A stretch of 64,000 bases of DNA from Agathobacter sp. (GTDB lineage: Bacteria; Bacillota; Clostridia; Lachnospirales; Lachnospiraceae). The notes under the pieces are model-generated. The model was not told where the DNA came from and did not search any database. It worked only from the letters and a program-made list of their open reading frames with translations. Below, piece by piece: positions 8,795-55,684 of this stretch. A program made the translations under genes and the position numbers. The stretch covers positions 1-64,000 of the forward strand of contig JALFLB010000057.1 in assembly GCA_022775045.1 (NCBI GenBank). The letters run 5' to 3'. The stretch's first letter is position 1, and each line of letters opens with the position of its first letter.

Positions 8795-9828
8795 AATGGA
8801 TTACGGTCCTGACAGGATTCTTGTCTGCAGTGGTATGTGCAAGTCTGTATTTTTTTCCGGATATTCACGAGCGCGAAGTGCTTGCAGCGGAACAGCTGAA
8901 AGAAATCGGGGATGGGAATCTGATTACGACATCTGCCAATCCGGCTGAGGTTGTGGAGGATGTGGAGGATCTGGAGGCACAGCTTAAAATTGCGTTGCCG
9001 AAGGATTTGAGTGAGGATGACCTTAAAATCGAGAATGATTATATTACGCAAACGGTATATATTCATTTTGCGGGTGGGGTGGATGACTATTTTGATGAGT
9101 ATGCCATTAAGGGCAGCAGTGATCATATCGCATCGCTTTCGTACTATAAGGATGGCGGGGATGGTGTGATTGCGCTTGCCCTTGACCGGGTATATGAACT
9201 GGAACAAAAATATGAGGCAGGAAGTTTATATTTGAATTTTATCAATCCTCATGATATGTACGATAAAGTAATCGTGGTGGATGCCGGACACGGAAGCCGT
9301 GCACCTGGAGCTGTCAAGTTAGGAGTGGCGGAAAAGGATATTGATCTTGCAATTCTGTTGGAATTGAGGAAAATGCTGGAGGATTGTCCGGAAAATATCA
9401 GGGTTTATTATACTCGTACTTCAGATACAAATCCGACATTTGATCAGCGTGTACAGCTTGCAAATAAATCGGATGCGGATCTTTTTATCAGCATTCATAA
9501 TAATTCTGATGCAACTGGAAATTTTACACGTACAAGCGGAACACAGGTAATGTACAGTGAATCAGATAAGACAGAGCTGTCAAGCAAAAAGTTTGCACAG
9601 ATTTGTCTGGACAATGTTGTAGATAGCCTTGGCAGCCGCGACAGAGGTCTGCTCAAAGGGGATAGTATTTATATTATCCGTACAAGCGAGGTGCCGGTTG
9701 CTCTGGTTGAGGTTGGATTCATGACTAATTATGATGAACTGGAAAAATTGAGGGATACAAAGTATCAGCAAAAAGCAGCAAAAGGTATATATAATGCAAT
9801 TATGGAAGCTTTTCAGGAGGGATATTAA
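8776..9828 (+). CDS. N-acetylmuramoyl-L-alanine amidase (Amidase_3)
   Basis: 350 residues with an N-terminal membrane segment (about 8-27), a beta-rich AMIN-like stretch (about 90-165) and a zinc amidase domain starting at VIVVDAGHG. The four zinc/catalytic residues are visible: His in DAGHG (about 172), Glu in AEKDI, His in SIHNN and Glu in VEVGF. It would cleave the amide bond between muramic acid and L-Ala of peptidoglycan outside the membrane. It overlaps the peptidase gene and is 3 bases ahead of rdgB. Confidence 0.92.
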   Translation: MDERVLKWITVLTGFLSAVVCASLYFFPDIHEREVLAAEQLKEIGDGNLITTSANPAEVVEDVEDLEAQLKIALPKDLSEDDLKIENDYITQTVYIHFAGGVDDYFDEYAIKGSSDHIASLSYYKDGGDGVIALALDRVYELEQKYEAGSLYLNFINPHDMYDKVIVVDAGHGSRAPGAVKLGVAEKDIDLAILLELRKMLEDCPENIRVYYTRTSDTNPTFDQRVQLANKSDADLFISIHNNSDATGNFTRTSGTQVMYSESDKTELSSKKFAQICLDNVVDSLGSRDRGLLKGDSIYIIRTSEVPVALVEVGFMTNYDELEKLRDTKYQQKAAKGIYNAIMEAFQEGY

Positions 9829-9831
9829 GAG

Positions 9832-10425
9832 ATGAAAACAATTATTTTTGCAACGGGAAATCAGGATAAGATGAGGGAAATCCGTGAGATTATGGCGGAC
9901 TGTGAGGTGGAGATTATTTCCATGAAGGAAGCTGGAATCAAAATTGATATTGTTGAAGATGGTGCAACCTTTGAAGAGAACTCTCTGATTAAGGCACGTG
10001 CAGTTGCTGGCTGTGCAGATGCCATTGTGCTGGCAGATGACTCAGGTTTGGAAATTGATTATCTGAATAAAGAGCCGGGGGTTTATTCTGCGCGTTACAT
10101 GGGAGAGGATACTTCCTATTCAATTAAAAACCGTAACCTCATTGATCGGTTAGAGGGAGTGCCGAAGGAGAAACGTACGGCACGCTTTGTCTGTGCGATT
10201 GCCGCGGTATTGCCGGATGGACAGGAACTTGTCACCAGACAGACGATGGAAGGTTATATTGGCTGGAAACCGGAAGGGGAGAATGGATTCGGGTATGATC
10301 CGATTTTTTATCTTGATGAATTTGGCTGTTCTTCAGCAACTCTTACAAGTGAACAGAAGAATGCAATCAGCCATCGGGGAAAGGCTCTTAGGGCTATGAA
10401 GGAAATGTTGAAAAAGTATTTATAA
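9832..10425 (+). CDS. rdgB: XTP/dITP diphosphatase (non-canonical purine NTP pyrophosphatase)
   Basis: 197 residues, normal for the HAM1/RdgB family. It opens with the TGNQDKMREI nucleotide-binding motif and has ADDSGLEIDYLNKEPGVYSARY and the GFGYDPIF motif. It removes dITP and XTP from the nucleotide pool, avoiding purine deamination damage in DNA. Start ATG follows the amidase stop closely with AGGAGGGATATT upstream. Confidence 0.95.
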   Translation: MKTIIFATGNQDKMREIREIMADCEVEIISMKEAGIKIDIVEDGATFEENSLIKARAVAGCADAIVLADDSGLEIDYLNKEPGVYSARYMGEDTSYSIKNRNLIDRLEGVPKEKRTARFVCAIAAVLPDGQELVTRQTMEGYIGWKPEGENGFGYDPIFYLDEFGCSSATLTSEQKNAISHRGKALRAMKEMLKKYL

Positions 10426-43779: not shown

Positions 43780-43797
43780 AATGAAATGATGTGTTCG

Positions 43798-43820
43798 GAC
43801 CGCGTGCATGGCGCGCGGTC
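43798..43820 (+). promoter_or_regulatory. Attenuator-like hairpin before the maturase gene
   Basis: GACCGCG (43798-43804)/CGCGGTC (43814-43820) stem followed by TTTGTT. It could reduce read-through into the maturase so that more precursor than enzyme is made. Confidence 0.5.
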
Positions 43821-43854
43821 TTTGTTATGCTATGGAAAGAGAGGAAATATTGTA

Positions 43855-45210
43855 GTGGTTCATCAATTTAAGAACAATGGCTATGATATTGTCTTAGATG
43901 TGAATTCGGGTGCGATTCATGTGGTGGATGATGTAACCTATGACGTGATCGCAATGTTCGAAGAACATACAAGAGAAGAGATGGTAAAGGCGCTATCGGA
44001 CAAGTATCCGGCAGCAGAGATTGAAGAAGCAATCGATGAGGTAGAGCAGCTCCGAGATAAGGGGGAATTGTTTACAGAGGATGTGTACGAGAGTCACATT
44101 ACAGACTTTAAGAAGCGTCCGACGGTAGTGAAGGCACTTTGTTTACATATTGCTCACGACTGTAATCTTGCCTGTAAGTATTGCTTCGCAGAGGAAGGCG
44201 AATATCATGGCAGAAGGGCACTGATGTCCTATGAGACGGGGAAGCAGGCATTGGATTTCCTGATTGCCAACTCAGGTAGCCGTCGCAATCTGGAGGTGGA
44301 TTTCTTTGGGGGAGAGCCACTTTTAAATTTTGATGTGGTAAAGCAGCTGGTTGCTTATGGGCGGGAGCAGGAGAAGCTTCACGATAAGCATTTTCGATTT
44401 ACACTTACAACCAACGGTGTGTTGCTGAATGATGAGATTATGGAGTTCGCAAACAAGGAGATGGACAATGTGGTCTTAAGTATTGATGGCCGCAAGGAAG
44501 TTCATGATCGGATGCGACCATTCCGCAAGGGTGCGGGAAGCTATGATCTGATTGTACCGAAGTTTCAAAAATTTGCAGAGAGCAGGAATCAGGACCGCTA
44601 TTATGTCCGTGGTACATTTACTCATTTCAATACAGATTTTTCCAAAGATGTACTGCATTTGGCAGATTTGGGATTCAAACAGATTTCCGTGGAGCCGGTT
44701 GTTGCACAGCCGACAGATGAATATGCGTTGACAGAGGAAGATCTGCCGGTGCTTTTTGAGGAGTATGATAAGCTTGCGGCAGAGATGGTTCGACGTAAAA
44801 AAGAGGGGAACGCGTTCAACTTTTTCCACTTTATGATTGATCTGGAGGGCGGTCCATGTGTATATAAACGCTTGTCCGGATGTGGGTCCGGAACGGAATA
44901 TCTTGCGGTGACTCCATGGGGAGACCTTTATCCGTGCCATCAGTTTGTGGGAAATGAGGATTTCCTGATGGGAAATGTCTGGGATGGTGTGACTGCAACG
45001 AAGATTCAGGATGAATTCAAGTGTTGTAATGTGTATGCCAAAGAAAAATGCCGCAACTGTTTTGCAAGATTCTATTGTAGTGGTGGATGTGCCGCAAACT
45101 CATACAATTTTCACGGCAGTATCACAGATGCTTATGATCTGGGGTGCGAGCTTCAGAAGAAACGTATTGAGTGTGCGATCATGATAAAAGCCGCAGAAGC
45201 GGAAAATTAA
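43855..45210 (+). CDS. scfB: SCIFF radical SAM maturase with SPASM domain
   Basis: 452 residues from GTG 43855, giving MVHQFKNNGYDIVLDVNSG, the typical start of this family (it is also a RiPP-recognition region). The radical SAM cluster motif CNLACKYC is near residue 105, followed by a barrel and a SPASM domain with CGSGTEYLAVTPWGDLYPCHQ and the CRNCFARFYCSGGC cluster ligands. It uses S-adenosylmethionine chemistry to form the thioether cross-links on the precursor upstream. A longer frame from 43786 lies within the structured spacer and is unlikely. Confidence 0.95.
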   Translation: MVHQFKNNGYDIVLDVNSGAIHVVDDVTYDVIAMFEEHTREEMVKALSDKYPAAEIEEAIDEVEQLRDKGELFTEDVYESHITDFKKRPTVVKALCLHIAHDCNLACKYCFAEEGEYHGRRALMSYETGKQALDFLIANSGSRRNLEVDFFGGEPLLNFDVVKQLVAYGREQEKLHDKHFRFTLTTNGVLLNDEIMEFANKEMDNVVLSIDGRKEVHDRMRPFRKGAGSYDLIVPKFQKFAESRNQDRYYVRGTFTHFNTDFSKDVLHLADLGFKQISVEPVVAQPTDEYALTEEDLPVLFEEYDKLAAEMVRRKKEGNAFNFFHFMIDLEGGPCVYKRLSGCGSGTEYLAVTPWGDLYPCHQFVGNEDFLMGNVWDGVTATKIQDEFKCCNVYAKEKCRNCFARFYCSGGCAANSYNFHGSITDAYDLGCELQKKRIECAIMIKAAEAEN

Positions 45211-45230
45211 AGAATAGGAAGGAAACAAAG

Positions 45231-47513
45231 ATGAAGAAAAGCAAGGGTGTCGTTATTATCGCGGTTATTCTGGCGTGTTTAGTCGGGCTGGGATATTATA
45301 CAAGCACGATAATGTCAGCGACAAGCACAAGTCAGGCGGAGACTGACAACAAGGCTGAGTCAGAGGGAATTAAGCTCGGTCTTGATCTTTCGGGTGGTGT
45401 GTCCATTACCTATCATATTGTGGACAAGAATCCATCTAAGAAGGACATTGAAGACACAGTGGCAAAACTCGAAGAACGTGCCGAGAGTTACAGTACCGAG
45501 TATGCGGTATATCCGGTAGGAGATGACCGTATTACCGTCGAGATTCCGGGTGTGTATGATGCAAATGCAGTACTTGAGGATCTGGGAAGTCCGGGCTCGT
45601 TGTATTTTATTGTACAAAAAGGTGCGGATGGCAGTGATAACTATAGCATGCAAAGCGACGGTACCTATGCTCTGAATAAGGATATTGAAACTTTGATCGC
45701 AGACGGATCCGTTATTCTGGATGGTAATGATGTGAAGTCTGCCAGTGCTGCTTACAATGGAGATAAGGCGACTGGTGCAAAGGAGCCGGTCGTACAGCTT
45801 GCATTTAAGAATGATGCGGCAGAGATTTTTGGAGACGCTACTACGAAGGCTGCAGCTTCAGGGGAGTCAATTGGTATCTATTATGATGATCATTTTATCA
45901 GTGTGCCTACTGTAAAGAGTGCTATTACCGATGGAAATTGCATTATTGAGGGACAGGCTGATTACGAAGAGGCAGAGCAGCTTGCAACATTCATCCGTGT
46001 CGGAGCTATTAACTTAGAGCTCGAGGAGATGGAGTCAAGTGTTGTTGGTGCCCAGCTCGGTGGTAAAGCTCTTACATCCAGTGTAAAAGCTGCCATCATC
46101 GGTCTGATTTTGGTAATGCTGTACATGATTATTTTCTATGGTCTTTCCGGTGTGGTTGCATCTGTTGGACTTGGAATTTATACTACATTAGTTGTAGCGC
46201 TTATTTATCTGTTTGAGATTACATTGACATTGCCTGGTATCGCAGGTGTTATTCTTGGTATTGGTATGGCGGTGGATGCGAACGTTATCATTATTTCCCG
46301 TATCCGTGAGGAGATTGCCAGCGGAAAATCTGTTCTTACCTCTATCAAGGAAGGATATAAGAAGGCACTTTCCGCTATTGTTGATGGTAACGTAACGACA
46401 TTTATTGCAGCCCTTGTGCTGATGTGGCTTGGTTCCGGAACAGTTAAGGGATTTGCATACACTTTGATGATCTCAATTCTGGTATCGGTATTTACTGCGC
46501 TTGTTATTTCAAGATTCTTAAATCTTGCATTATATGCAGTTGGTTTCCAGAGCGAGAAGTGGTATGGTCGTGCGAAGGAGCGCAAGACAATTGATTTCAT
46601 CAAGCATCGCTGGGTATGCTTCATTCTTTCGATTGTTTTGATTATGGCAGGATTTGTCGGAATGATCGCTTACAGTGCAAGCGGAAACCGTGCATTGAAT
46701 TTCAGCCTGGAGTTTGTTGGTGGTACATCCATCTCTGCGGACTTTGGCAAGGATTATACGGTAGAAGAAGTTGAGGATACCATTGTGCCGGAGGTTGCTA
46801 ATGTAATCAATGATAAGGCGATTCAGGCAAGCACCGTATCCGGAAGTGATATTGTTACCATCAAGACCAAAACCTTGACACTGGAAGAGCGAGAGGCTGT
46901 TGGCAATATGCTGGTTGAGAAATTTGGCGTTGACGAGTCCACGATTGAGAGCCAGAGTATCGGATCTACTATCAGTGGTGAGATGCGTAAGAATGCAATC
47001 CTTGCAGTTGTGGTTGCCTGCATTTTCATGTTGTTCTACATCTGGTTCCGCTTTAAGGATATCCGTTTTGCAGGAAGTGCAATTATTGCATTGATTCACG
47101 ATGTGCTGGTTATGCTGACGGCATATGCGTTGATCCGCATCTCTGTGGGTAATACATTTATTGCATGTATGCTTACCATTGTCGGATATTCCATCAACGA
47201 TACCATCGTTATCTTTGACCGTATCCGTGAGAATATGCAGGGAATGAGAAAACAGACACCGGAGACATTGGCAGAGGTTGCGAACAAGTCTCTGACACAG
47301 ACACTTACCAGATCCATCAACACATCCGTTACTACAATTGTAATGGTACTGCTGTTGTTCATTCTGGGTGTATCTTCCATCCGTGAGTTTGCATTGCCGC
47401 TTATGGTTGGTCTGGTCAGTGGTACATATTCTTCCATCTTCATTGCTGCAAATCTGTGGTATATGATGAAGCTGCATCTTGGTAAGAACAGGCTGGTTAA
47501 GAAAAATAAATAA
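45231..47513 (+). CDS. secDF: Protein translocase subunit SecDF, fused
   Basis: 760 residues. The SecD half (about 1-435) has GLDLSGGVSITYHI and GIGMAVDANVIIISRIREE; the SecF half (about 440-760) has NFSLEFVGGTSISADF and GYSINDTIVIFDRIREN. Twelve membrane segments in all. It uses the proton gradient to pull secreted proteins through SecYEG. E. coli has two genes; here they are one. Start 45231 follows AGGAAGG, 20 bases after the maturase, so the SCIFF enzyme and SecDF are likely on one transcript. Confidence 0.95.
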   Translation: MKKSKGVVIIAVILACLVGLGYYTSTIMSATSTSQAETDNKAESEGIKLGLDLSGGVSITYHIVDKNPSKKDIEDTVAKLEERAESYSTEYAVYPVGDDRITVEIPGVYDANAVLEDLGSPGSLYFIVQKGADGSDNYSMQSDGTYALNKDIETLIADGSVILDGNDVKSASAAYNGDKATGAKEPVVQLAFKNDAAEIFGDATTKAAASGESIGIYYDDHFISVPTVKSAITDGNCIIEGQADYEEAEQLATFIRVGAINLELEEMESSVVGAQLGGKALTSSVKAAIIGLILVMLYMIIFYGLSGVVASVGLGIYTTLVVALIYLFEITLTLPGIAGVILGIGMAVDANVIIISRIREEIASGKSVLTSIKEGYKKALSAIVDGNVTTFIAALVLMWLGSGTVKGFAYTLMISILVSVFTALVISRFLNLALYAVGFQSEKWYGRAKERKTIDFIKHRWVCFILSIVLIMAGFVGMIAYSASGNRALNFSLEFVGGTSISADFGKDYTVEEVEDTIVPEVANVINDKAIQASTVSGSDIVTIKTKTLTLEEREAVGNMLVEKFGVDESTIESQSIGSTISGEMRKNAILAVVVACIFMLFYIWFRFKDIRFAGSAIIALIHDVLVMLTAYALIRISVGNTFIACMLTIVGYSINDTIVIFDRIRENMQGMRKQTPETLAEVANKSLTQTLTRSINTSVTTIVMVLLLFILGVSSIREFALPLMVGLVSGTYSSIFIAANLWYMMKLHLGKNRLVKKNK

Positions 47514-51365: not shown

Positions 51366-51405
51366 AAACAGTAGTCAGATATGACAAAATTTGACTGCTG
51401 TTTTT
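51366..51405 (+). terminator. Terminator after serS
   Basis: 12-bp stem AAACAGTAGTCA (51366-51377)/TGACTGCTGTTT (51392-51403) with one T-G pair and TTTTT. Its sequence is closely repeated at 53599-53635. Confidence 0.8.
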
Positions 51406-51430
51406 GTTTATTTTTTAATCTTATAAATAT

Positions 51431-51458
51431 TTGAGAACAAAGGGTTGCGTGGTAAAAT
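51431..51458 (+). promoter_or_regulatory. Promoter of EIIC-EAL gene (repeat block copy 1)
   Basis: TTGAGA (51431-51436), 16-base spacer, TAAAAT (51453-51458). The spacer shares ACAAA.GGTTGCG with the promoter at 53660. Confidence 0.6.
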
Positions 51459-51511: not shown

Positions 51512-53590
51512 ATGAGAGACTATTTAAAGCGGGGTATTTTGAAGTTCGAGTGCAGCTTTTTTTCCAGAGTGATGAAACGGGCGCTTGGGATGATGATTCC
51601 ACTGATTCTTGTGGGAGGTCTGTCTTGTGCGTTGCGCAATCTGCCGATTCCGGTATATCAGGATCTCTTGTCTACAGAACAATTCGAGTGGCTGTATGAA
51701 TTCTTTGATACAATTTATACGGGGACTTTTGGATTTTTCTCGATTGCACTGGTAATTGGCTTAAGCCTGAGTTATGCGATGGAGTTGAATGAGACTGTTG
51801 ATTATATGGTCATGTATGTGGTTGTTGCACTTGCCGCGTACGGGGTTCAGCTCAATGTGGGAAACAGATATTTTCAGGCAGAGAGCCTTGGTACGGTGGG
51901 AAGTTTTTCGGCATTGATTGTGGCTTATCTATCTTGTATGGCTTACACCGGGATGCGAAAAGTCCGCTGGCTGACATTGGAAAATTTTACAGCTGGAATG
52001 GGTGGAATCTGTGTCCCGGCAATTCAGACATTTCTGCCGTTGCTTGTGATTACTGGAGCATCCGCTGCTATTAATCAGCTTTTTTATTTCCTGTTTCAGG
52101 TACATGGATGTTACGAGTTGCTCAATCAGATATTGCTTGGAATTTATCACAGTGTATCAACGAGTAATGAGTTCCTGTCAGGGCTGTTCTATACAATATT
52201 TGTAAATTTTTTATGGTTTTTTGGTTTACACGGAAGTCATATTCTCGAGCCGATTGCGCAGAATAGTATGGCATTTACGGGAGATTCGATTTTTTCGAAA
52301 TCCTTTTATGATGTATTTGTATCCATGGGCGGTTGTGGTACAACAATCTGTGTACTGATTGCATTGCTTTTGTTTTTTCGAAAGGAACGATCGGGAAAGC
52401 TGGCAGGACTGGCTTCTTTTACAGTGATATTTAATCTGAATGAGATGCTGACGTTCGGACTTCCGATTATTCTGAATCCGATTTTGTTTCTGCCATTTGT
52501 GTTAACACCGGTGGTTTGTTACTGTATTTCTTATGCAGCGGTAGCAATTGGATGGGTGCCGGTGATGACGCACGAGGTTGTATGGACGGTGCCGATTGGA
52601 GTCGGTGGATATCTGGCAACCGGGTCTGTACGTGGAACGATTTTACAGTTGGTATGTATTGTGATTGGTGTTGCGATGTATTATCCGTTTCTTCGTCTGA
52701 ATCAGCGTGCGGAAATCCGTAGAGCCAAGGAACAGGTTAAGATCTTAATCAGCGAACTTCAGGGAAAGGAAGAAAAAATCGAGCAGCCAATGTTTCTTAC
52801 GAGGGGGGATCATATAGGATCTACCTCACGTTTGTTGCTACTTGACTTAAAGCATGCGATTCGTAAGGGAGAACTTTACATGCTTTACCAGCCGCAGGTT
52901 CGGGCAGATGGAACCTGTATCGGTGCGGAGGCGTTGCTGAGGTGGGAACATCCGCTGTATGGAATGATTTATCCGCCTTTGATTATCTATCTTGCGGAGG
53001 AAGGAAAGATTCTTCCGGAACTGGAACAGTTTATTATGGATGATGTGGTTCGCGGAATTGCGAAGGTTAAGGAAAACTATGAAGGTTCATTTAAAGTTTC
53101 TGTGAATTTTACCGCACACTCGCTGCTTTGGGATATTGAAGAGTATGTAAAGGATACATTGGAAAAATACCAGGTGGAGCCACAGAAGCTATGGATTGAG
53201 ATTACCGAACAGGATATTCTTTTACAGACGGATATGGTCATCAGCAAACTGAACAAATTAAAAAGTGCGGGACATAAATTGTTGATTGATGATTTTGGGA
53301 TGGGGCATACCTCACTTCTCTATTTGCAGTCAGATTATTTTGATATTGTGAAGCTGGATGGTTCATTGACGCGACCATTACTTGCGAGCAAGACGAATCA
53401 GAAGATTGTCGCCTCCATTGTGGAACTGGGGAATGAATTAAATATTGATGTCATTGCTGAGTATGTGGAGACAAAGGAGCAGCAGAAAATGCTGGAGAAG
53501 CTTGGCTGTACCTGTTATCAGGGCTATCTGTATAGCAAGCCGGTTGTGTTGGATGAATTCATTGATTACATGAAAAAACAGAATCAGTAG
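51512..53590 (+). CDS. PTS EIIC-like membrane domain fused to EAL c-di-GMP phosphodiesterase domain
   Basis: 692 residues. Residues about 20-410 are a ten-segment membrane domain like lactose/cellobiose-type PTS EIIC (FLWFFGLHGSHILEPI, ITGASAAINQ, LNEMLTFGLPIILNP). A short helical linker (about 411-440) leads to an EAL domain with EALLRW (near 473), VNFTAHS, IEITEQD, DDFGMGHTSL (near 593), KLDGSL, AEYVET and QGYLYSKP (near 670). All metal- and substrate-binding positions are kept, so it should hydrolyse c-di-GMP. No EIIA, EIIB or GGDEF part is present, so the EIIC part probably senses a sugar instead of transporting it (inference). AGGGGGAACAAGA precedes the ATG. A galactanase lipoprotein gene follows. 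Confidence 0.9.
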   Translation: MRDYLKRGILKFECSFFSRVMKRALGMMIPLILVGGLSCALRNLPIPVYQDLLSTEQFEWLYEFFDTIYTGTFGFFSIALVIGLSLSYAMELNETVDYMVMYVVVALAAYGVQLNVGNRYFQAESLGTVGSFSALIVAYLSCMAYTGMRKVRWLTLENFTAGMGGICVPAIQTFLPLLVITGASAAINQLFYFLFQVHGCYELLNQILLGIYHSVSTSNEFLSGLFYTIFVNFLWFFGLHGSHILEPIAQNSMAFTGDSIFSKSFYDVFVSMGGCGTTICVLIALLLFFRKERSGKLAGLASFTVIFNLNEMLTFGLPIILNPILFLPFVLTPVVCYCISYAAVAIGWVPVMTHEVVWTVPIGVGGYLATGSVRGTILQLVCIVIGVAMYYPFLRLNQRAEIRRAKEQVKILISELQGKEEKIEQPMFLTRGDHIGSTSRLLLLDLKHAIRKGELYMLYQPQVRADGTCIGAEALLRWEHPLYGMIYPPLIIYLAEEGKILPELEQFIMDDVVRGIAKVKENYEGSFKVSVNFTAHSLLWDIEEYVKDTLEKYQVEPQKLWIEITEQDILLQTDMVISKLNKLKSAGHKLLIDDFGMGHTSLLYLQSDYFDIVKLDGSLTRPLLASKTNQKIVASIVELGNELNIDVIAEYVETKEQQKMLEKLGCTCYQGYLYSKPVVLDEFIDYMKKQNQ

Positions 53591-53598
53591 ATGATTTG

Positions 53599-53635
53599 CA
53601 GCAGTCAGATTTGACAAAATCCGGCTGCTGTTTTT
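53599..53635 (+). terminator. Terminator after EIIC-EAL gene
   Basis: Stem CAGCAG (53599-53604)/CTGCTG (53625-53630) extended by T-G and C-G pairs, then TTTTT. It resembles 51366-51405 closely. Confidence 0.75.
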
Positions 53636-53659
53636 GTATATTTTTTTAAATAAAAACGC

Positions 53660-53688
53660 TTGTGAACAAACGGTTGCGCAGTTAAAAT
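53660..53688 (+). promoter_or_regulatory. Promoter of GH53 gene (repeat block copy 2)
   Basis: TTGTGA (53660-53665), 17-base spacer, TAAAAT (53683-53688), with the same spacer core as at 51431. Confidence 0.6.
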
Positions 53689-53725: not shown

Positions 53726-55684
53726 ATGAGAAAAAAATTCATAAGTGTAATCATGGCATCGGTGTTGGGGGTGTCTTTGCTGATGGGATGCGGAAGCTAC
53801 AAGGCGGACCTGCCGACAGAACCAAAGGAAGCAGAAATTTTTGTGAAACCAGTGGAGAATCTGCCAGAGAATTTTATTAAGGGAATGGATATTTCTTCCG
53901 TTATTGCGGAGGAAGAGAGTGGAGTTGTGTACTACAACGAAGTGGGAGAGGAGGAAGATTTGTTCAAAATTCTTGCAGATTCCGGAATTAATTATATTCG
54001 TGTGCGTGTGTGGAATGATCCATATGATGAGGACGGAAATGGTTATGGTGGAGGAAACTGTGATGTTACAAAGGCAGCAACAATTGGAAAACGTGCAGAA
54101 AAGTATGGAATGAAACTTCTGGTGGATTTTCATTATTCTGATTTTTGGGCAGATCCGAATAAGCAGTACTGTCCGAAAGCATGGAAAGGAACAGAGCCTT
54201 CGAAGAAAGCGGAACTGCTCTATGACTATACAAAAGAGGCGCTTACAGAAATTATTAAGGGTGGAGCAGATGTTGGAATGGTACAAATTGGAAATGAGAT
54301 AAATCCGGGACTGTCAAGTGTGTATAGTGAGGCGGATATTATGGAGATGCTGAAAGCCGGAAGCAAGGCGGTCCGTGAGGTGGCAGAGAAGAAGCACAGA
54401 GATATTAAGATTGCGGTACATTATACAGAAATTGATAATTTTGATGATACCGTAAATCGTGCGCAAAAGCTGGAAGATTACGAAGTTGATTATGATGTGT
54501 TCGGTGTGTCTTATTATCCATTCTGGCATGGAACCATGGATAACATGACAGCGGTTTTATCGGAAATAAAAGAGCGGTTTGGGAAGGATACCTGTGTTCT
54601 TGAGACATCTTATCCGTATACAGGGGAGGATGGAGACACTTCTGCCAACAGCGTTACCGCTGAGGATTGTCTGGAGGATTATCCAGTCGGTGTGCAGGGA
54701 CAGGCAACCGCAGTACGTGATGTTATTGCCCATGCTTCGGATGCCGGTGCGCTTGGTGTATTTTACTGGGAAGGAGCATGGATTCCGGTTGGAAATGAGC
54801 ATGAGAGTAACAGCAAGATATGGGAGAAATATGGAAGTGGATGGGCAAGCAGTTATGCAGGAAGCTACGACCCGAAGGATGCCGGCAAATATTACGGTGG
54901 AAGTTCCTGGGACAATCAGGCATTTTTTGATTTTGAAGGGCATAAGTTGCCATCGCTTGATGTGTTCAAGTATGTGAACTATGGTGCAACCTGTGAACCC
55001 AAGGTGCTGGCATACCGAGAGATTAAGATTGAGTCGGCAATCAATGAACCCCTCGCAATGCCGGACACGGTGGAGGCAATTTACAACGATCCGTCCAAGA
55101 CGGATGGGGTTGCCGTGACGTGGGATGCAGACCAGTTGAATGCTGTGGATACAGCGAGAGCGGGAGAATACACAGTAGACGGAGTCACTGCAGATGGTAC
55201 AACGGTTACTGCGAGCATAAAAATTACCAATGTCAATTATATCAAAAATCCGAGCTTTGAGGACAAGGATGTTTCTATGTGGAAGGTGGAGTATCCGAAC
55301 GGCAATGCCTGTACGGATATCCAGACGAAAGCGGCAGACTGTATTTCCGGGGAAAATGCATTTCATTTCTACAGTGAGGCAGAGCAGGAGTTTACGGTTG
55401 AACAGACAATCACGAATCTGAAGAGTGGTAGTTATACCGCTACAGCCAATATGCAGGGCGGAGATGTGGGAGCTGATGCTGTGATCATGCTTTATGTTCA
55501 GGTTGGAGACAAACGCTACGAGTCAGAGCCTATTACACTTGATGGATGGGTAAACTGGAAAAAGCCGGTAATTACAGATATCCCCATAGCCGAGGGGGAT
55601 GAGATTCATGTCGGAGTATATGTCCGTTGTGCAGCAAAAGGCTGGGGTACGATGGATGATTTCGAGCTTTATTGCCAACAGTAG
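53726..55684 (+). CDS. GH53 endo-beta-1,4-galactanase lipoprotein
   Basis: 652 residues. Lipobox LLMGC (Cys near residue 22). The GH53 barrel (about 50-410) has RVRVWNDPYD, the acid/base Glu in IGNEINPG (about 190) and the nucleophile Glu in VLETSYPY (about 292). An Ig-like domain (about 430-500) and a C-terminal beta-sandwich (about 505-652; NPSFE, GWVNWKKP, DDFELY) resembling CBM61, a galactan-binding module, follow. It should cut pectic galactan side chains on the cell surface. AAGGAGG precedes the ATG. No galactoside transporter is adjacent. Confidence 0.92.
   Translation: MRKKFISVIMASVLGVSLLMGCGSYKADLPTEPKEAEIFVKPVENLPENFIKGMDISSVIAEEESGVVYYNEVGEEEDLFKILADSGINYIRVRVWNDPYDEDGNGYGGGNCDVTKAATIGKRAEKYGMKLLVDFHYSDFWADPNKQYCPKAWKGTEPSKKAELLYDYTKEALTEIIKGGADVGMVQIGNEINPGLSSVYSEADIMEMLKAGSKAVREVAEKKHRDIKIAVHYTEIDNFDDTVNRAQKLEDYEVDYDVFGVSYYPFWHGTMDNMTAVLSEIKERFGKDTCVLETSYPYTGEDGDTSANSVTAEDCLEDYPVGVQGQATAVRDVIAHASDAGALGVFYWEGAWIPVGNEHESNSKIWEKYGSGWASSYAGSYDPKDAGKYYGGSSWDNQAFFDFEGHKLPSLDVFKYVNYGATCEPKVLAYREIKIESAINEPLAMPDTVEAIYNDPSKTDGVAVTWDADQLNAVDTARAGEYTVDGVTADGTTVTASIKITNVNYIKNPSFEDKDVSMWKVEYPNGNACTDIQTKAADCISGENAFHFYSEAEQEFTVEQTITNLKSGSYTATANMQGGDVGADAVIMLYVQVGDKRYESEPITLDGWVNWKKPVITDIPIAEGDEIHVGVYVRCAAKGWGTMDDFELYCQQ

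Follow-up and report, generated by a model that had tools for sequence, protein, structure and literature searches.

The fusion gene and its protein

The window, that is, the whole stretch of 64,000 nucleotides of Agathobacter sp. DNA that was analysed, carries on its forward strand an open reading frame at 51512..53590, which begins with ATG at 51512 (directly preceded by GGGGGA), continues for 691 codons and closes with a stop codon at 53588-53590. The encoded protein of 692 amino acids, supported by this frame, by its Pfam domains and by full-length homologues, joins a phosphotransferase permease domain to a c-di-GMP phosphodiesterase domain. The domain database search proposed in the preliminary description placed both parts above their cut-offs in one chain: PTS_EIIC (PF02378) spans residues 24-333 (51581..52510, forward strand; 1.3e-25, 90.6 bits versus a cut-off of 30.7, profile positions 3-319 of 319), and EAL (PF00563) spans residues 445-677 (52844..53542, forward strand; 2.2e-58, 197.9 bits versus a cut-off of 31.3). 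The two Pfam domains in one chain correspond to the architecture of PTS_EIIC with a c-di-GMP enzyme reported in PMC8846402. As had been supposed, Pfam finds neither an EIIA nor an EIIB domain within the protein. Similarity to EIICs of the lactose/cellobiose type extends to about residue 407; TIGR00410 is the joint best EIIC model over residues 19-407, with a score of 178.7 bits that falls below its curated cut-off of 236 bits and leaves the protein outside that family as formally defined.

The ten membrane segments read earlier from the sequence are borne out by the family average in a hydropathy count (segments above 1.3), and the window protein itself gives eleven, the additional one reaching 1.32. 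The 15 residues that follow the last hydrophobic segment include five lysines or arginines, which fits a cytoplasmic location of the EAL domain.

Among solved structures, the sole sequence match to the EIIC part is ChbC, a cellobiose-specific IIC protein (3qnq; residues 23-406, E value of 3.8e-31), which we take to be that of Bacillus cereus. The equivalents of ChbC His250 and Glu334 are kept over this alignment. ChbC differs in having no EAL domain, and the stretch between these two residues measures 84 residues in ChbC versus 71 in the fusion. For the EAL part there are many matches among solved EAL domains, the best being 8arv (E value of 5.1e-45), named only as a bifunctional enzyme, and 5m1t (E value of 4.4e-42), from MucR. 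By sequence MucR has the same kind of EAL domain, and its sensor part presumably differs from the EIIC of the fusion.

Conservation of the two active sites and of the linker

Conservation was assessed in an alignment of 64 fusions, made up of the window protein, 46 loci from the family and 17 from the genus. Two of these contain in-frame stops, which were masked, one (L098) is cut off by the end of its contig before reaching the EAL domain, and one has no counterpart of the first 58 residues. The metal and substrate residues known from active EAL domains are all present in the window protein, as is every EAL motif quoted in the preliminary description. The Glu of EAL, the Asn, both Glu residues of IEITE, both Asp residues, the Lys, the following Asp, the first Glu of AEYVE and the Gln are kept in 63/63 copies, and at the second Glu of AEYVE 57/63 copies have Glu and 6/63 have Asp. 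This conservation rules out a degenerate EAL domain and suggests that the domain is probably an active phosphodiesterase.

The EIIC part also keeps its substrate site. His240 (codon at 52229..52231, forward strand) is aligned with His250 of ChbC, a number obtained by counting along 3qnq, and Glu311 (codon at 52442..52444, forward strand) aligns with Glu334; the window protein has both the His and the Glu of the substrate site of lactose/cellobiose PTS transporters. We take both to be sugar contacts in the ChbC structure; no open paper stating this was found in the literature searched. Position 240 is His in 59 of the 64 fusions (Asn in three, Tyr in one, Gly in one), and position 311 is Glu in 61 (Asp in two, Gln in one). 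Among nine free-standing EIICs the Glu is kept in 9/9 and the His in 8/9, so their retention fits transport too. The residue that follows the Glu is Pro in all nine free EIICs, and in 60/64 fusions residue 312 is Ile, Leu, Val, Met or Thr. ChbC itself (3qnq) has Met at this place, so replacement of the Pro need not mean that binding has been lost. The distance between the His and the Glu falls into two main classes, 70-74 residues (33/63) and 84 residues (28/63), the longer being that of ChbC.

The last membrane segment is connected to the EAL domain by a linker of nearly fixed length (residues 406-440; 52727..52831, forward strand). The spacing between the WTVP and EAL motifs is 112 residues in 49/63 copies, 110-115 in 61/63 and 123 in the other two. 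The linker sequence varies widely although its length is nearly fixed, while the His-to-Glu stretch spans 70-84 residues. A rigid signalling helix would be expected to leave just this pattern, a constrained length with little constraint on sequence.

Recurrence and origin of the fusion

The preliminary description had supposed that such fusions may exist in other Lachnospiraceae, and they do. With the genome of the window included, matches were obtained in 47/397 family genomes (E value of at most 1e-60), 46 of which cover both domains, the remaining one (G351) stopping at a contig edge. In the genus, the fusion was found over both domains in 18/62 genomes (own included), the copy in G437 running from residue 59 onward. 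A phylum-wide sample gave matches in 9/398 genomes at an E value of at most 1e-50; six are fusions (own included), two are free-standing EIICs, and one (G836) has EIIC and EAL in different frames. Fusions also occur in Clostridioides difficile (33.8% identity), Acetoanaerobium (37.0%), Photobacterium (27.2%) and Vibrio (30.9%). No relatives of the fusion were found among the viral contigs searched, and a pattern scan of genome contigs, with patterns drawn from one sequence, retrieved one locus (L020), in its EAL part only. Because both domains recur full-length in dozens of other genomes, the fusion is no assembly accident, and a chance or misassembled joining is ruled out. The EIIC-EAL fusion is a real family with a conserved architecture.

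Several copies look broken. In-frame stops are present in L060 and L068; the first 58 residues are missing in frame in L156 (G437); L170 (G462) is a frame of 278 amino acids with an EIIC-like start and an EAL-like end; and L177 has EIIC and EAL in different frames. These copies may be pseudogenes, assembly errors or products of switching.

A tree of 58 EIIC domains, built with a quick method, separates nine free from 49 fused domains by one branch (SH-aLRT of 99), and one change between the fused and free states suffices. The free set is small (three from the genome searches, E. coli ChbC and five from 190 plasmid records with a match), and 40 of the 64 Lachnospiraceae-type fusions were used. 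One ancient fusion could explain the position of the fused EIICs used here on one side of the tree, although long branches were flagged and no root was inferred, so a single origin is not proven.

Phosphotransferase partners in the genomes

A lactose/cellobiose PTS transporter would be accompanied by an EIIB of PF02302 and an EIIA of PF02255. The genome of the window (2.45 Mb) gave no match to either family, while the same searches were positive in 6/14 and 3/14 control genomes, respectively; at 90% completeness, the assembly may lack a partner gene. It encodes two PF02378 proteins, namely, the fusion and a 706-amino-acid EIIC-EIIB-EIIA protein of the glucose type. The genome-wide search for partners covered PF02255 and PF02302 only, and the glucose-type protein carries one EIIA and one EIIB of other families.

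Across the 64 fusion genomes, PF02255 is present in 7 (4 of the 42 of good quality) and absent from 57, and PF02302 of any kind is present in 42 (28 of the 42 of good quality) and absent from 22. Of the 106 PF02302 matches listed, 53 lie in frames of at least 600 amino acids and 44 in frames of at most 150 amino acids, the size of a free EIIB; among the matches listed, such short frames occur in 14/64 genomes.

The gene neighbourhoods were mapped, as had been suggested earlier, and no recurrent EIIA/EIIB set emerged. In a comparison by eye of the PF02255 and PF02302 matches listed for the 64 genomes, none shares a contig with the fusion at a distance of 150 kb or less, many of these contigs being short; the nearest on a shared contig is about 190 kb away, in G046. 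Clustering of neighbours at 47 loci (within six genes of at least 100 amino acids) gave no cluster beyond 6/47 loci, and those lay at scattered positions; for the other 17 loci, from the genus, the search used the genes of the window only. A conserved operon around the fusion, within the 47 clustered loci, is ruled out on this basis.

The neighbouring galactanase

A GH53 galactanase gene with a Big_4 domain and a lipoprotein-like N-terminus (53726..55684, forward strand; Pfam) directly follows the fusion gene, as first described. The spacers before the two genes have in common a 48-nucleotide repeat and a similar promoter-like site, all on the forward strand. Before the fusion lie the first terminator-like copy of the direct repeat (51369..51416, 88% identical to 53599-53646) and a promoter-like site (51431..51458) containing a degenerate galactanase operator (51435-51451). 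Between the fusion and the GH53 gene lie the second copy (53599..53646) and a promoter-like site with the strong operator GAACAAACGGTTGCGCA (53664..53680). The terminator-like repeat thus stands on both sides of the fusion, as if the spacer had been duplicated, and the spacer of the fusion is probably a local duplication.

The GH53 gene adjoins the fusion in 2/64 loci, the window and G405, several loci being cut by contig ends, and a conserved partnership is ruled out. Six loci (the window, G405, G454, G455, G456 and G437) have the fusion between serS and an enoyl-CoA hydratase gene; other genes may intervene, and the hydratase gene of G454 lies on the opposite strand. These common flanks indicate that the fusion was probably there before the GH53 gene. 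The fusion begins about 20 nucleotides after serS in G455 and G456. In G405 (L125), a stretch of about 200 nucleotides at 9740-9930, between the GH53 promoter-like site and the start codon, has the inverted ends GTAACTATTCAGAACCC and GGGTTCTGAATAGTTAC and looks like a small insertion element.

Of 20 GH53 loci taken from the genus (L124-L143), 17 contain the palindromic operator CAAMCGRTTGCGCA with no more than one mismatch, among them that of the second GH53 protein of the window's genome (1384 amino acids, C25). The symmetry of the operator suggests the LacI-operator type, and the sites likely mark a galactanase regulon; a regular expression for LacI-type regulators found none near the GH53 or fusion loci. 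None of the 46 family fusion loci has CAAMCGRTTGCGCA at this stringency. A matrix was built from 14 of the 17 GH53 sites, which score 24.1-28.6 bits, or 21.6-28.0 bits when each is left out in turn. The operator of the window's GH53 gene is an exact match (28.6 bits), and the copy before the fusion has three mismatches and scores 14.1 bits, which places the fusion gene outside this regulon as defined by the reference sites. Among the 127,968 positions scored in the window, only the GH53 site and a 15.8-bit site inside another gene rank above this copy. The best scores in the serS-fusion spacer of the five syntenic relatives are 7.3, 3.7, 1.5, 1.5 and -3.6 bits, and the best within 250 nucleotides upstream of the 63 other fusion loci is 11.6 bits. 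The idea of a shared galactanase operator is weakened by the degenerate state of the fusion's copy compared with the 14 reference sites and by its absence from the five relatives.

A pattern drawn from the two window sites, which have no mismatches by construction, has its next best match in the genome (two mismatches) before the second GH53 gene, and a reversed-pattern control over the genome gave no site. Among 24 genus genomes (own included), a small number, a GH53 match is present in 6/6 with the fusion and in 11/18 without it. The adjacent galactanase is probably not part of the same system as the fusion, and galactan sensing receives no special support from these comparisons.

A candidate sugar receptor and its alternatives

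At a probability of about 0.6, we favour the reading that the EIIC-EAL protein is a sugar receptor rather than a transporter, a judgement drawn from sequence comparison. A PTS permease would have been turned into a membrane receptor whose ligand, going by the nearest family, is probably a beta-linked disaccharide or short oligosaccharide. The EIIC appears to keep its substrate site, and because the genome holds no phosphorylating partner of its own type, sugar binding would not be expected to result in phosphorylation and uptake. Elevator-type movement of the transport domain is known from other EIICs. Occupancy of the site could shift this domain, and the movement could be passed through the fixed-length linker to the cytoplasmic EAL domain, where it would alter the hydrolysis of c-di-GMP. 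The sugar binding, the coupling, its sign and the output are the parts of this reading that we infer. The preliminary description had likewise placed a sugar-sensing EIIC over a phosphodiesterase; this stands indirectly, through the retained active sites, the fixed linker length and the absence of PF02255 and PF02302, and its galactan component finds no support.

The EIIC may instead still transport, with EIIB and EIIA acting in trans, and the EAL domain would then report flux or phosphorylation state in the manner of a trigger enzyme. EIIC itself is not known to carry a phosphoryl group. Neither partner family is detected in the genome of the window, 57/64 fusion genomes are without PF02255 and 22/64 without any PF02302, 53 of the 106 PF02302 matches listed are in frames of at least 600 amino acids, and no neighbour cluster goes beyond 6/47 loci. 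These observations make a transporter of this kind unlikely, against the similarity to permeases, the intact substrate residues and the occurrence of PF02302 in 42/64 genomes (14 in frames of at most 150 amino acids) and of PF02255 in 7/64. The available part of PMC8846402, in treating PTS_EIIC as a phosphoreceiver domain, would also fit such a transporter. We consider it somewhat less probable still that unphosphorylated sugar passes through the EIIC by facilitated diffusion and that this traffic regulates the EAL domain. The substrate residues are kept though the genome has no EIIB of the PF02302 type, and the elevator mechanism would conceivably allow uncoupled movement, but no sugar-metabolic neighbour recurs at the 47 loci.

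Equally improbable is a galactan-specific sensor co-expressed with the GH53 galactanase, for which galactan-derived oligosaccharide had earlier been named as the candidate signal. The order of genes in the window and in G405, the related operator and the 48-nucleotide repeat with promoter-like site in both spacers, and the retrieval of the second GH53 gene by the two-site pattern, with none by its reversed control, all speak for it. Against it stand the adjacency in 2/64 loci (some cut by contig ends), a fusion operator of 14.1 bits versus 21.6-28.0 for the reference sites and 15.8 for a chance site inside a gene, scores of at most 7.3 bits in the five syntenic relatives, and the start of the fusion about 20 nucleotides after serS in G455 and G456. 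The least probable alternative, for which we see very little room, is that the EIIC is a mere membrane anchor or dimerisation platform, its binding vestigial and the EAL domain constitutively active. A few copies have indeed lost the His or the Glu, and the Pro after the Glu (9/9 free EIICs) is replaced in 60/64 fusions. Retention of the His in 59/64 and of the Glu in 61/64 across a divergence down to about 28% identity is, however, hardly expected of an anchor, and ChbC of B. cereus also has Met in place of this Pro.

A wider form of the receptor reading would describe a family of permease receptors reaching from the phylum of the window to the Vibrionaceae, in which EIIA and EIIB have been lost, transport no longer takes place, and occupancy without phosphorylation acts through a helix of fixed length on c-di-GMP breakdown; we hold it tentatively, at slightly less than even odds.

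For the proposed receptor, the rest of the genome offers a possible output. It contains 11 EAL matches, one a fragment, and the fusion is the only one joined to PF02378. The fragment (L011, G000 C25:11501-11656; 69 amino acids) is probably a gene remnant. The GGDEF motif looks intact in two other EAL proteins, and the cell is therefore probably able to synthesise c-di-GMP. There are two PilZ matches, one of them a YcgR-like protein (PF12945+PF07238) encoded between a ParA/MinD-type ATPase, FlhG-like by reading, and CheB. This position makes motility a likely target of the c-di-GMP output of the fusion, with a flagellar brake of the YcgR type, whose gene adjoins chemotaxis genes, as one likely effector.

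Relation to known systems

The C. difficile homologue WP_003435700.1 has the EIIC-EAL architecture over its full length at 33.8% identity; it differs in its neighbours, being located beside rlmH, and its product name, "EAL domain-containing protein," omits the EIIC part. The c-di-GMP enzymes of C. difficile were reportedly studied by Bordeleau et al. in 2011, in work that may cover this homologue. ChbC, the closest solved relative, lacks the EAL domain, and the genome of the fusion in turn lacks the PF02255 EIIA and PF02302 EIIB.

PTS_EIIC joined to GGDEF, EAL and/or HD_5 was reported from Pfam 34 and called rare by Randall et al. 2022 (PMC8846402), who, in the part of the paper available, class EIIC as a phosphoreceiver domain of c-di-GMP enzymes. 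Those architectures resemble the fusion in that the same sensor-side domain is joined to c-di-GMP enzymes; as far as that part goes, the work is a count of architectures in which the output domain of each is not given, and the present analysis adds a genomic test for partners. In Vibrio cholerae, the phosphodiesterase PdeS is controlled by EIIA-Glc (Heo et al. 2019, as described in the available portions of PMC8846402 and PMC10333796), and sugar status there likewise controls a c-di-GMP phosphodiesterase via a PTS protein. PdeS, as described there, responds to a separate EIIA acting by phosphorylation, whereas in the fusion the EIIC is in the same chain and no phosphorylation is expected. The available portions of PMC10333796, PMC1183210, PMC9286219 and PMC5903667 contain no description of an EIIC-EAL protein. 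The earlier statement that no experimental description is known agrees with the literature searched, in which no functional study of an EIIC-EAL protein was found, although a homologue may already have been tested in published work; the architecture itself is already known, as the available part of PMC8846402 makes clear.

If the receptor reading is correct, direct control of c-di-GMP by a sugar receptor would tie nutrient supply to whether the cell swims or stays in place, a link of interest in fibre-eating anaerobes, among them the probable relatives of this bacterium. A PTS permease turned receptor would also argue against classing EIIC as a phosphoreceiver domain, as has been done in print. 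With 47/397 family genomes, the fusion family is large enough for ordinary biochemistry.

Other features of the window

An Rfam search of the window found tRNAs only. A SCIFF peptide maturase (TIGR03974, 821.8 bits) is encoded at 43786-45210, just upstream of an open reading frame at 45171-47513 that was named SecD/SecF-like from reading of its sequence.
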